Shown: positions 32,937-42,158 of the stretch, one piece after another
Layout: every line of letters starts with the position of its first letter
Position numbering within the stretch: the stretch's first letter is position 1
Origin: a bacterium
GTDB taxonomy: Bacteria > Bacteroidota > Ignavibacteria > SZUA-365
Assembly: GCA_020444325.1 (NCBI GenBank)
Contig: JAHLLD010000015.1
Span: 1 to 64,000, forward strand
DNA: 64,000 nucleotides
Reading direction: 5' to 3'
Position numbers and translations under genes: made by a program
The notes under the pieces: generated by a model
The model's input: the letters and a program-made list of their open reading frames with translations, nothing else
The model's database searches: none
Told to the model about the DNA's origin: nothing

Positions 32937-34093
32937 AGCAGAAGACAGGACATATCGACCTCTGGGTATTTCTCAGCGTGCTTGCACTGATGATGTTCAG
33001 CGTGGGCGTAGTGTACAGCGCTTCGGTATCGATTTCCGGCGCGCGTCACGGCGGTGACTATAATTACCTCGTGCGCAGCCATACGATACGCGTCGTCCTC
33101 GGTGTCATCGCGCTCTTCGTCGGTATGTTCGTCAACTACCATTTCTACAAGTATGTCAGCAAGTATCTTCTGATCATCGCATTGCTGCTGCTTGGATACA
33201 CGCTGGTCGGCGGCACCATCGTCAAGGGTGCGCAGCGCTGGGTGACCTTCGGTCCCATAAGCTTCCAGCCTTCGGAATTCGCCAAGTTTGCCCTTGTCAT
33301 GCATCTGGCCGTCCTTCTCTCCTCGAAACAGAAATACGTCAGGGAATTCCGCGATGGCTTTCTGCCGCTGCTCATATGGATCGTGGCGGTGGTCGGACTC
33401 GTCTTTCTGCAGCCCAATTTCAGCACTGGCGCCATTCTGCTTTCCATCAGCTTCATGGTGCTGTTCGTCGGACGCGTCAAAATCGTGCATCTCGCCGGTG
33501 TCGCCATCGCGGGACTGCCGCTGGTACTCGTTTACGCGGTGTCCGCTTCGTACCGCTGGCAGCGCATCATGTCGTACTTCACCGGGGGAGGCGGGAGCGA
33601 AGCCGGGAACTGGCAGGTGTCGCAGGCGGTGATTGGACTCGGCAGCGGCGGCATTTTCGGTGTCGGCATGGGGATGAGCAAACAGCGCGAATTGTTCCTT
33701 CCGGAATCCTACACCGACTTCATTTTCGCCATTGTCGGCGAGGAATACGGATTTATCGGCGCTGTGCTGATCCTCGCACTGTTCGCTATCATCATGGTGC
33801 GCGGCATGAAAATCGCCAAGCGCGCGACCGACGATCTCGGGCGATTCCTGGCCGTCGGCATCACCTGCACCATCACCGTGTACGCCATCATCAATACCAT
33901 GGTCACGACGGGACTGCTGCCCACCACGGGGCTTCCCATGCCGCTGCTCAGTTACGGCGGTACGACCATTGTGTTCACCGCATACTTCCTCGGCGTGCTT
34001 CTGAACATCTCGATGTACACCCGAATTCGTCCGCGAGAAATCATCGTGCAGCAGGAAGAAGACGGTCCCAAAGTCGGAGAACTCTATCAATGA
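32933..34093 (+). CDS. ftsW: Peptidoglycan polymerase FtsW (SEDS family)
   Basis: The 386-residue polytopic protein polymerises lipid II at the septum with FtsI. SEDS signatures are present: QRWVTFGPISFQPSEFAKFA (about 100-119), QPNFSTGAI, where most relatives have QPDxGT, and GLPMPLLSYGGTT (about 335-347). I use the ATG at 32933, coupled to murD by ATGA. The frame open to 32897 lies within murD. The stop overlaps the murG start, again as ATGA. Confidence 0.96.
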   Translation: MKQKTGHIDLWVFLSVLALMMFSVGVVYSASVSISGARHGGDYNYLVRSHTIRVVLGVIALFVGMFVNYHFYKYVSKYLLIIALLLLGYTLVGGTIVKGAQRWVTFGPISFQPSEFAKFALVMHLAVLLSSKQKYVREFRDGFLPLLIWIVAVVGLVFLQPNFSTGAILLSISFMVLFVGRVKIVHLAGVAIAGLPLVLVYAVSASYRWQRIMSYFTGGGGSEAGNWQVSQAVIGLGSGGIFGVGMGMSKQRELFLPESYTDFIFAIVGEEYGFIGAVLILALFAIIMVRGMKIAKRATDDLGRFLAVGITCTITVYAIINTMVTTGLLPTTGLPMPLLSYGGTTIVFTAYFLGVLLNISMYTRIRPREIIVQQEEDGPKVGELYQ

Positions 34094-35202
34094 AACAGGC
34101 ACTGCGCGTCATATTCGCCGGAGGCGGAACGGGAGGACATCTCTTCCCGGGTGTCGCCGTGGCCGAAGCGCTGCTTCAGCTGCGTCCTGGCAGCAGTGTC
34201 AGCTTTGTCGGATCGCACAATCGTATCGAAGCGCGTGTGGTGCCGAAGCTCGGCTATGCCTTCGATCCACTCTGGATTGCGGGACTGCGTCGCAGCTTCT
34301 CACTGAGCACCGCGCTTCTGCCGTTGAAAATCATGGTTTCGCTCGTGCAGTCCTGGCGCATTCTCCGTCGGCGCAAACCACATGTGATCGTGGGTACCGG
34401 TGGATTCGCCAGCGGTCCATTACTCTACGTCGCCGCGAAAACCGGTCGTCCCACACTCATCCACGAGCAGAACGAGTATCCCGGTATCACGACGCGCAAG
34501 CTTGCCGCGGATGTCGATGAGGTGCATGTGACCTACGAATCCAGCGCCCGGCTCCTCAGGCAGGCGAAGCAGCTCGTCATGAGCGGCAATCCCGTGCGAT
34601 TGAGTCTGCAGAAGCATGACTCCGGTGACGCGCGCGTGCATTTCGGACTGCATCCGTCGCGGCGCACGCTGCTCGTGTTCGGCGGCAGTCTCGGCGCATC
34701 CGCCATCAATCGCGCCATGCGGAATCTCGTACCGCGTCTGGTGCGTGAAGAATATCAGCTCATCTGGCAGACCGGCGCGAAAGACATCGACGAGTACGCC
34801 AGTTTCGGTGCCCTGTATCAGGGACAGGTCGTGGTGCGGCCTTTCATTGACGAGATGGACATGGCATACTCTGCAGCTGATCTCGTGCTCTGCCGCGCAG
34901 GGGCGACGACGCTTGCTGAACTGGGCGTACTCGGACTCCCTGCAGTGCTTGTGCCGTACCCGCATGCAGCAGCGGACCATCAGACGCATAACGCCACTGC
35001 TGTGGCGGACAGCGGAGCGGCGGTTATGCTGCGCGACAGTGAACTCGACAGGCTGGAAGGAACGTTATTCACTCTTCTCGATGACGATCCGGCGCTGGCG
35101 CGCATGGCACAGGCATCGGCACAACTCGGTCGTCCCCAGGCCGCATTCCATATCGCCGAAGCGGTGATACGACTCGCAGAACAGAAGGAGGCCAGCGCAT
35201 GA
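34090..35202 (+). CDS. murG: Lipid II synthase MurG (GlcNAc transferase)
   Basis: The 370-residue peripheral membrane enzyme adds GlcNAc to lipid I, forming lipid II. Motifs are GGGTGGHLFPGVAVAEAL (about 11-28), GGSLGASAINR (about 198-208) and the donor-site block GATTLAELGVLGLPAVLVPY followed by DHQ (about 277-300). A much longer open frame begins at 33376 but is only an overlap with ftsW. The true start is the ATG at 34090 within the ftsW stop. Confidence 0.96.
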   Translation: MKQALRVIFAGGGTGGHLFPGVAVAEALLQLRPGSSVSFVGSHNRIEARVVPKLGYAFDPLWIAGLRRSFSLSTALLPLKIMVSLVQSWRILRRRKPHVIVGTGGFASGPLLYVAAKTGRPTLIHEQNEYPGITTRKLAADVDEVHVTYESSARLLRQAKQLVMSGNPVRLSLQKHDSGDARVHFGLHPSRRTLLVFGGSLGASAINRAMRNLVPRLVREEYQLIWQTGAKDIDEYASFGALYQGQVVVRPFIDEMDMAYSAADLVLCRAGATTLAELGVLGLPAVLVPYPHAAADHQTHNATAVADSGAAVMLRDSELDRLEGTLFTLLDDDPALARMAQASAQLGRPQAAFHIAEAVIRLAEQKEASA

Positions 35203-35663
35203 GTACCAACGAACGCGTCTTCAAACGCCGGCATGATTTCTACTACATCACGTTGCTCGTGTACGTCGCCTTTCTGGCCATGTATATCGTCATCACCGGC
35301 ACCATTACCGACAACACGTTGAAGTTCGGTTTCCACGATCCCGTCGTCTACATCATCGGCATATTCATTCTTCATGCACTGGTCATGCTGCTGGTCGGCG
35401 TCGTGCGCAACCGCAGCCTGGTGCTGACAGATGATGCCATGATATTCCGCTCCCGTTTCCGTGAGCGCAGTATCCCGCTTGAGGATATCGAACGTATCAC
35501 GCTCAAGCGCGACCGGCGGAAGCCGAACGACGGAAGTTTCGCCGTACTCAAGCTTCATGTCGCCGAACGTCGTCGCGTCGTGCGCATCCGCGTCGCCAAT
35601 TACGAGCATGAGAAAGAGCTGTACCAGATGCTGAAAAAACTCAAAAGCGAACAGAAGAAATAA
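35199..35663 (+). CDS. Two-TM membrane protein with PH-like domain, inside the dcw cluster
   Basis: The 154-residue protein has two transmembrane helices (about 16-35 and 48-69). A beta-strand-rich, basic C-terminal region follows (about 70-150: LVLTDDAMIFRSRFRE..., IPLEDIERITLKRD), in the style of bacterial PH domains. I do not recognise a named family. It overlaps murG by ATGA and has AAGGAGG ahead, so it is co-translated with cell-wall genes. murC follows after 63 bases. This is not a standard dcw member. A role in envelope synthesis or divisome anchoring is inference from position alone. Confidence 0.8.
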   Translation: MSTNERVFKRRHDFYYITLLVYVAFLAMYIVITGTITDNTLKFGFHDPVVYIIGIFILHALVMLLVGVVRNRSLVLTDDAMIFRSRFRERSIPLEDIERITLKRDRRKPNDGSFAVLKLHVAERRRVVRIRVANYEHEKELYQMLKKLKSEQKK

Positions 35664-35726: not shown

Positions 35727-37109
35727 TTGAAGTTTGCGAATATTCACCATATCTACTTCGTCGGTATCGGCGGTATCGGCATGAGCGGGATCGCTGAAAT
35801 CCTTCTCAACCAGGGCTTCCGTGTATCAGGCTCCGACCTCTCGCTGACGGAAGTGACGCGGCATCTGCAGGACTGCGGGGCGACGGTGTACGAGGGACAT
35901 GACCCCGCGAATCTGCATGACGTCGACGTCCTGGTATACTCCTCCGCCGTGGCACTGGAAAACCCGGAAGTGATCGCCGCATTGGACCGCAAGATTCCGG
36001 TCATTCGCCGTGCGGAAATGCTGGCGGAAGTCATGCGTCTCCATCACGGCATCGCGATTGCAGGAACACACGGGAAAACGACGACGACCTCGATGCTCGG
36101 ACTCGTGCTCATCGAGGGGGAAAAGGATCCCACTGTGATAGTCGGCGGCAAGCTCCATGCTTTCGGCGGCACCAATGCGCGCCTGGGTGGCGGGGAATTC
36201 ATGGTCGTGGAAGCAGACGAATACGATCGTTCCTTCCTCAAACTCAATCCCACCATGGCGGTATTGACGACGCTGGAAGCGGAGCATCTTGACATCTATG
36301 CCAGTCTCGAGGATCTGAAAAATGCCTTTATCGAATTCGCGAACAAGATTCCTTTCTATGGCTTCATAGCCATGTGCCTCGACGAGCCCGTGCTGCAGGA
36401 AATTCTCCCGAGCATCAAGCGCAAGGTGATCACCTACGGCTTCAGCTCGCAGGCCGATGTGCAGGCTGTCGGACTCGTACACAACGAGAACCGTGCGCAG
36501 TTCACGGTGCTTTCCATGGGGAAGGAACTCGGGGAAATCAGTCTCGGTGTCCCGGGCGAGCACAACGTGCAGAACGCCCTGGCCGCCATCACCGTCAGTC
36601 TCGAACTGGGTCTCCCTTTCGAGAGCATCAAGAAAGCGCTCGACAGCTTCACCGGTGCGTTCCGCCGCTTTGAAGTAAAGGCCGATATCGACGGCATCCT
36701 GGTGGTCGACGATTACGCACATCATCCCACGGAAGTCAAAGTCACCCTGCGTGGCATCAAGGCCGGCTGGCGCCGACGCGTGGTCTGCGTATTCCAGCCG
36801 CATACCTACTCGCGCACACGTGATTTCCAGCGGGAATTCGGCGGCGCGTTCATGAACGCCGATGTGCTCATCGTTACGGACATTTACCCCGCCCGCGAGC
36901 GTCCCATCCAGGGCGTGACCGGTGAGCTGATCTCGGATGCCGCCCGGCAGTTCGGACATAAGAATGTGCACTACGTGCCGGATAAGGCTGACGTTCCGGC
37001 CACGCTGCAGGAACTGGTGCAGCCCGGGGATATTGTCATCACCATGGGTGCGGGCGACATCTATCAGTACGGCGCACAGTACATCACCATGCTTGAGGAT
37101 AAGGCCTGA
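35727..37109 (+). CDS. murC: UDP-MurNAc:L-alanine ligase MurC
   Basis: The 460-residue Mur ligase adds L-alanine to UDP-MurNAc. It starts with TTG at 35727 behind GGGAGGA. IYFVGIGGIGMSGIAEILLNQG forms the N-terminal nucleotide fold (about 9-30). The P-loop is GTHGKTTTT at about 113-121, and DDYAHHPTEV (about 328-337) is the conserved MurC/Mpl motif. Mpl is unlikely given position and length. murB follows after three bases. Confidence 0.95.
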   Translation: MKFANIHHIYFVGIGGIGMSGIAEILLNQGFRVSGSDLSLTEVTRHLQDCGATVYEGHDPANLHDVDVLVYSSAVALENPEVIAALDRKIPVIRRAEMLAEVMRLHHGIAIAGTHGKTTTTSMLGLVLIEGEKDPTVIVGGKLHAFGGTNARLGGGEFMVVEADEYDRSFLKLNPTMAVLTTLEAEHLDIYASLEDLKNAFIEFANKIPFYGFIAMCLDEPVLQEILPSIKRKVITYGFSSQADVQAVGLVHNENRAQFTVLSMGKELGEISLGVPGEHNVQNALAAITVSLELGLPFESIKKALDSFTGAFRRFEVKADIDGILVVDDYAHHPTEVKVTLRGIKAGWRRRVVCVFQPHTYSRTRDFQREFGGAFMNADVLIVTDIYPARERPIQGVTGELISDAARQFGHKNVHYVPDKADVPATLQELVQPGDIVITMGAGDIYQYGAQYITMLEDKA

Positions 37110-41520: not shown

Positions 41521-41612
41521 ATTTTGTCTGGGGCGTCGTGGTTGTGCTGACGCAACGCACAAACTGTAACTGTGTTGCAAACAGTGCTGCGGGGGTTAAA
41601 AGTGGCTTGCAA

Positions 41613-41636
41613 AAACGTACGACAATACGTACGTTT
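41613..41636. promoter_or_regulatory. Palindromic operator of the yefM-yoeB module
   Basis: AAACGTACG (41613-41621) and CGTACGTTT (41628-41636) form a perfect inverted repeat with a six-base spacer, 20 bases ahead of the antitoxin start and just before its AAAGGAG. Antitoxins of the YefM/Phd family bind palindromes at this position to autorepress, so this is the likely operator. Confidence 0.75.
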
Positions 41637-41655
41637 AGAGGGAAAGGAGTTTCAC

Positions 41656-41898
41656 ATGCCCATACACACCGTATCCGACGCACGCGCAAACCTGTATCGC
41701 CTCATTGACCAGGCAGCCGAATCGCACGAGCCCATCGTCATCACCGGGAAACGCTCATCGGCTGTCCTGATCGCGGAAGAAGACTGGCGATCGATACAGG
41801 AGACGCTGTACCTGCTCTCCATCCCCGGCATGCGCGAATCAATCATCGCCGCCCGGAAGGAGCCACTGTCGAAGAGTGCAAGGGAACTCGACTGGTGA
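41656..41898 (+). CDS. Antitoxin, YefM/Phd family
   Basis: The 80-residue protein has the family N-terminal fold (MPIHTVSDARANLYRLIDQ, then EPIVITGKRSSAVLIAEEDWRSIQETLYLL), which dimerises and binds DNA. The C-terminal tail (about 55-80) would wrap the toxin. AAAGGAG precedes the ATG at 41656. Its stop overlaps the toxin start by four bases (GTGA). It pairs with the YoeB-like toxin that follows and is autoregulated through the palindrome at 41613-41636. Confidence 0.93.
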   Translation: MPIHTVSDARANLYRLIDQAAESHEPIVITGKRSSAVLIAEEDWRSIQETLYLLSIPGMRESIIAARKEPLSKSARELDW

Positions 41899-42158
41899 CA
41901 TGGACCGTCGTTTTCTCCACGCAGGCCCGCAAGGACGCGAAGAAACTCGCGTCCGCGGGATTGAAGCCCAACGCAGAGGCGCTGTTGGACATCCTCCGGG
42001 AGAATCCCTTCCAGACTCCGCCGCCGTACGAAAAACTTGTTGGTGATCTCGCAGGAACCTATTCCCGCCGCATCAATATCCACAACCGCCTGGTATACGA
42101 AGTCTTCCCGAAGAAGCACATCGTCCGCGTCCTGCGGATGTGGACGCACTACGAATAG
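41895..42158 (+). CDS. Toxin, YoeB/Txe family mRNA interferase
   Basis: The 87-residue protein starts with GTG overlapping the antitoxin stop. It shows the YoeB pattern: WTVVFSTQARKDAKKL at the N-terminus, PPPYEKLVGDLAGTYSRRINIHNRLVYEV in the middle and the C-terminal HIVRVLRMWTHYE, with His and Tyr of the active site. YoeB cleaves mRNA at the ribosome. Length and operon order (antitoxin first) are typical. No sign of truncation. Confidence 0.93.
   Translation: MTWTVVFSTQARKDAKKLASAGLKPNAEALLDILRENPFQTPPPYEKLVGDLAGTYSRRINIHNRLVYEVFPKKHIVRVLRMWTHYE

Follow-up and report, generated by a model that had tools for sequence, protein, structure and literature searches.

The stretch of DNA analysed here (the window) comprises the first 64,000 nucleotides of contig JAHLLD010000015.1 (assembly GCA_020444325.1), from a bacterium of the class Ignavibacteria. 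It carries a division and cell wall (dcw) cluster in the order ftsI-mraY-murD-ftsW-murG-[PH-like gene]-murC-murB-(ftsQ position)-ftsA-ftsZ. The bracketed gene, the subject of this analysis, encodes a small membrane protein with a predicted pleckstrin homology (PH) fold, and its link is to murG itself, not to the dcw cluster as a whole. As an earlier note made from the sequence had stated, the canonical cluster holds no gene at this place: murG and murC are directly adjacent in Escherichia coli K-12. The features of the locus are as follows.

34090–35202, + strand: murG (lipid II synthase), its stop overlapping the start of the PH-like gene as ATGA; TIGR01133, E 8.8e-85, above cut-off.
35185–35191, + strand: Shine-Dalgarno sequence AAGGAGG, read directly, 7 nt 5' of the PH-like gene ATG.
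35199–35663, + strand: PH-like membrane protein gene, 154 residues, ATG start; open reading frame (ORF) of a class-wide family, ratio of nonsynonymous to synonymous substitution rates (dN/dS) 0.09–0.36.
35214–35228, + strand: predicted first PH strand, residues 6–10, before the membrane hairpin; AlphaFold2 model, the same in the model of the relative L104, and structural alignments.
35235–35306, + strand: predicted membrane helix 1, residues 13–36, with conserved D13, Y15, Y16, Y22, Y29 and G34; model and conservation.
35340–35408, + strand: predicted membrane helix 2, residues 48–70, with a nearly invariant D47-P48 at its start; model and conservation.
35415–35657, + strand: predicted PH strands 2–7 and C-terminal helix, residues 73–153, basic, with conserved R86, R124–R126, R129 and R131; model, fold comparison, conservation and charge.
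35727–37109, + strand: murC, TTG start, the next gene, 63 bp downstream of the PH-like gene; TIGR01082, E 3.4e-164.

The gene call, the ATGA overlap (murG stop TGA at 35200–35202) and the strong ribosome binding site thus stand as the earlier note described them, and the neighbours are confirmed as MurG and MurC by their family models. Neither a sigma-70-like promoter nor a terminator-like site was found around the PH-like gene, which fits a single transcript but is no proof of one. The gene is single-copy in its genome, and comparison with eleven relatives of the same family places substitutions mainly at third positions, with dN/dS in the range given above and at about 0.1–0.2 against close relatives. 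It is a real gene under purifying selection. A chance ORF is ruled out by this selection together with conservation across the class, and a local insertion or assembly artefact by presence in independent genomes.

The position behind murG is highly regular among relatives. In a first set of 30 loci, murG lies directly upstream in 29/29 cases where the contig reaches that far, and murC is next in 28. A second set of 80 named loci was collected by protein sequence alone, ignoring genomic context; there murG is upstream on the same strand in 77/77 testable loci and murC follows in 76/76. The gap between murG and the PH-like gene, measured at 139 loci, has a median of +2 bp; the two genes overlap at 55 of these (at 30 the overlap is exactly 4 nt), and more than 50 bp separate them at 20. 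The outcome that would have counted against the earlier note, a lack of the gene at this site throughout the relatives, clearly did not occur.

In six genomes of another clade (L166–L171), the dcw cluster is dispersed. The PH-like gene still follows murG in these genomes, while the query set detects no further dcw gene up to about 7 kb from murG. Because the pair persists where the rest of the cluster has dispersed, the PH-like gene is linked to murG itself and not to the whole cluster. Linkage to murG independent of the cluster is therefore seen in six genomes, with exceptions that are considered below.

Within the class, a profile built from 39 members detects the PH-like gene in 196 of 245 genomes, compared with 240 of 245 for MurG; it was likewise present in 51 of the 61 genomes searched among relatives, the window's own included. 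The 80 named contigs come mostly from Ignavibacteria, Ignavibacteriae, Ignavibacteriales and Bacteroidetes/Bacteroidota metagenome-assembled genomes. Outside the class, the phylum survey found the gene only in family f26 (three genomes), plus one weak, unlinked match (G185). Five class genomes with estimated completeness of 94–100% gave no MurG match (G044, G145, G425, G428 and G456), and four of them (G044, G145, G428 and G456) matched neither MurG nor the PH-like gene, which could reflect a missing contig or real loss. This joint absence was not used as evidence, because one lost contig removes both genes.

The window protein (mean pLDDT, the predicted local confidence score, 80) and L104 (pLDDT 87; 117/165 residues at 90 or more) give AlphaFold2 models that agree: in both, one strand precedes two membrane helices, after which come six further strands and a C-terminal helix. 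All listed top rows of the structural matches to both models are PH-like domains, including the bacterial PH proteins 3dcx and 3hsa. The best matches are 3fss (Z 8.7, 78 residues, 2.5 Å) and 2yf0 (Z 9.1, 81 residues, 2.9 Å), and a Z near 8 can reflect a common arrangement. Since Foldseek E-values are weak (best 5e-3), the call is based on the uniformity of the match list and on topology: the models show seven strands and a C-terminal helix, as expected for the PH-like superfamily, whose fold is a two-sheet barrel of seven strands with such a helix as its cap. A PH fold is accordingly predicted for the window protein. The bacterial domains 3dcx and 3hsa (PF08000/DUF1696) share this fold over about 80–88 residues (Z 7.7–8.2) but have 6–13% identity to the PH-like protein, form rings and are described without a membrane hairpin (PMC2817789). 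The structural alignments begin at residue 1–6 of the models; the first strand therefore seems to be part of the PH domain, with the membrane hairpin apparently inserted after it. For DUF2244, a two-helix bacterial PH family, and the related DUF1200, the first strand is described as absent (PMC2817789).

Conservation and charge complement the models. Among 39 diverse members, D13, Y15, Y16 (Y/W), Y22, Y29, D47, P48, R86, R129, R131 and L141 are invariant or nearly so, and R124 and R126 are strongly kept. Mean charge over 79 members is −1.7 for the loop and +13.7 for the PH part. Given the acidic loop and basic PH part, the positive-inside rule predicts that both protein ends and the basic PH domain are cytoplasmic, with a short loop joining the helices. 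The two transmembrane helices, PH-like character and basic C-terminus proposed in the earlier note are thus borne out as predictions by models, fold matches and charge.

The protein had also been called unrecognised, and profile searches agree. Every Pfam and NCBIfam model stays below its cut-off and a PDB sequence search returns no chain, so membership in a known family by sequence was rejected. The nearest families are all sub-threshold. For bPH_6 (PF10756), the window protein scores 16.7 bits against a gathering cut-off of 22, over the PH strands, and 8/79 members match weakly. For the EbsA-like family (PF17255), the score is 15.4 bits against 25.9, over helix 2 and the first PH strands, with weak matches in 31/79 members. 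The STM3941 family (NF041635), also of small proteins, matches weakly over residues 20–106, which take in the helices and the first PH strands; the window protein, at 18.4 bits (E 0.0015), falls far under the curated cut-off of 40, and sub-threshold matches occur in 55/79 members (best 3.1e-5). A search with STM3941 of the window's own genome and controls gave no match anywhere, the controls being silent too. To our knowledge, the YdbS/bPH_2, STM3941 and EbsA genes have no tie to murG, nor YdbS any to the dcw cluster.

In architecture, the protein resembles YdbS (bPH_2, DUF304), which has two membrane helices and one bacterial PH domain in about 150–160 residues (PMC8657885, PMC2817789). For the window protein, the model predicts the helices and the domain, and the putative intracellular orientation of the domain comes from charge only. 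YdbS differs in pairing with YdbT, not MurG, and bPH_2 is missing both from the families listed for the window protein (E up to 10) and from the 25 families shown for the 79 relatives (E up to 0.1). A search of the open-access literature, which leaves aside most subscription journals, turned up no account of a PH protein linked to murG. The protein apparently represents an undescribed, lineage-specific family of known architecture and not a new kind of protein. The addition of a gene to a conserved cluster in one lineage has a parallel in the extra dcw genes of actinobacteria (ylmD, ylmE, sepG and divIVA; PMC8092295), which encode unrelated proteins at other positions. Although few bacterial gene clusters are as well studied as dcw, this murG-tied gene has no Pfam or NCBIfam profile of its own.

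As the gene is still beside murG in broken-up clusters, it probably acts with the MurG step of wall building. The reading that we tentatively prefer, at a little short of an even chance, is that the PH-like protein is an inner-membrane adaptor whose basic PH domain serves to recruit or regulate MurG at the inner leaflet; this role, with the MurG binding and lipid recognition it entails, is one that we infer from synteny and fold only. The two-helix hairpin would fix the PH domain at the inner leaflet, where the domain might bind MurG or might use R86, R124–R126, R129 and R131 to bind acidic lipids or the phosphates of lipid I/II. Binding could recruit MurG to its lipid substrate, tune its activity or place it with other wall enzymes, while the predicted coupled translation would hold MurG and the PH-like protein in proportion. 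A stronger version, rather unlikely as stated, holds that most of the class uses the protein as a membrane receptor or regulator dedicated to MurG; the lipid II synthase of these bacteria would then amount to an enzyme of two subunits, the second being a PH protein that senses the inner leaflet or the lipid substrate. If the protein does recruit or control MurG, it would show that a separate protein can tie lipid II synthesis to the membrane, in a lineage whose wall growth has hardly been studied and whose families with and without the gene provide a natural comparison.

Several observations weigh against a role with MurG. Families f11 and f18 have no match to the PH-like gene in any member of the class survey and keep murG; in these families, in part of f21 and in a single f2 genome, murG and murC are joined with no space for a gene. 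The PH-like gene is therefore dispensable in some families of the class, and its product is accessory. In other genomes, the gene is away from murG (L051, L053, L054, L055, L058 and G039), and in L054, L055 and L058 it precedes an exported-protein gene instead. The correlation at 108 loci between pairwise protein distances of MurG and of the PH-like protein (Mantel r 0.83, reached by 0/999 permutations) speaks for the adaptor, but it shows joint vertical descent, from which it is also expected, and is no proof of interaction. MurG residues near the region that we presume to face the membrane do not differ clearly according to whether a genome carries the gene; the test is weak because the presumed positions misfit E. 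coli numbering (A75, R79, N82, R85, S116). The interpretation in the earlier note is partly supported: the gene holds the same place in relatives and is under purifying selection, the families without it and the genomes with it off murG show that it is not universal, and the main idea, a putative role in envelope growth or division, is kept with its focus shifted from division to MurG.

Among the alternatives to a MurG adaptor, the one that survives best, itself unlikely, is a protein of envelope protection or permeability, akin to YdbS, STM3941 or EbsA, which would occupy the murG operon only for growth-proportional expression and make no contact with MurG. The sub-threshold matches to STM3941_fam, EbsA and bPH_6 among members are in keeping with this, as is the link of two-helix PH proteins to bacteriocin transport (PMC8657885), but a mere passenger would not be expected to stay by murG once the cluster had dispersed.

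It is improbable that the protein is instead one half of a two-protein envelope device whose link to murG is secondary. The other half would be an exported, C-terminally anchored protein of about 200 residues; one with a C-terminal helix usually follows the PH-like gene in L166–L171. The downstream partner is conserved at five loci, with these ORFs:

L046, 1974–2552: exported-protein ORF.
L050, 1965–2561: exported-protein ORF.
L052, 1968–2612: exported-protein ORF.
L056, 1925–2548: exported-protein ORF.
L057, 1974–2564: exported-protein ORF.

Similar ORFs follow the PH-like gene in L047, L054, L055 and L058, the last three off murG. In the window's own genome, a gene resembling that of BamD has a neighbour whose product is weakly similar, but the match covers the C-terminal helix only (E 0.008), and murC is normally the next gene in the window and the named loci. 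A ring-forming PH scaffold for cell division, linked to the divisome and not to lipid II synthesis, is a shade less probable again: PF08000 domains form rings and are proposed parts of membrane-associated assemblies (PMC2817789), yet in dispersed clusters the PH-like gene sits with murG and not with an fts gene.

Further details of the exported protein are as follows. Where it lies directly behind the PH-like gene in one clade, it ends in the helix 'EPVVFVAAAVTTVVLLFTVRS'. No Pfam family was found in the members scanned. The similar ORF of the window's own genome (L164 1489–2046; G000:C6, − strand) encodes 185 residues and lies directly upstream of the gene that, by eye, reads like BamD.

Elsewhere in the window's cluster, FtsI and FtsW match NCBIfam families below the curated cut-offs, no NCBIfam family matches the protein at the ftsQ position at the cut-off applied, and murE and murF were identified only from position and inspection by eye. 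Additional genes flank the PH-like gene in some relatives. A protein of about 170–270 residues that by eye resembles MORN/YwqK repeats is encoded between murG and the PH-like gene in L082, L091, L107, L125, L126 and L129. A half-size TauE/SafE membrane protein of 120–140 residues, which may work as a dimer, lies between the PH-like gene and murC in seven loci (L093, L110, L114, L115, L123, L127 and L128; PF01925 E 1.9e-23 in L128). Behind ftsZ in the window (41572–42158) lies a two-gene module that by eye resembles a Phd/YefM antitoxin and a RelE/YoeB toxin.
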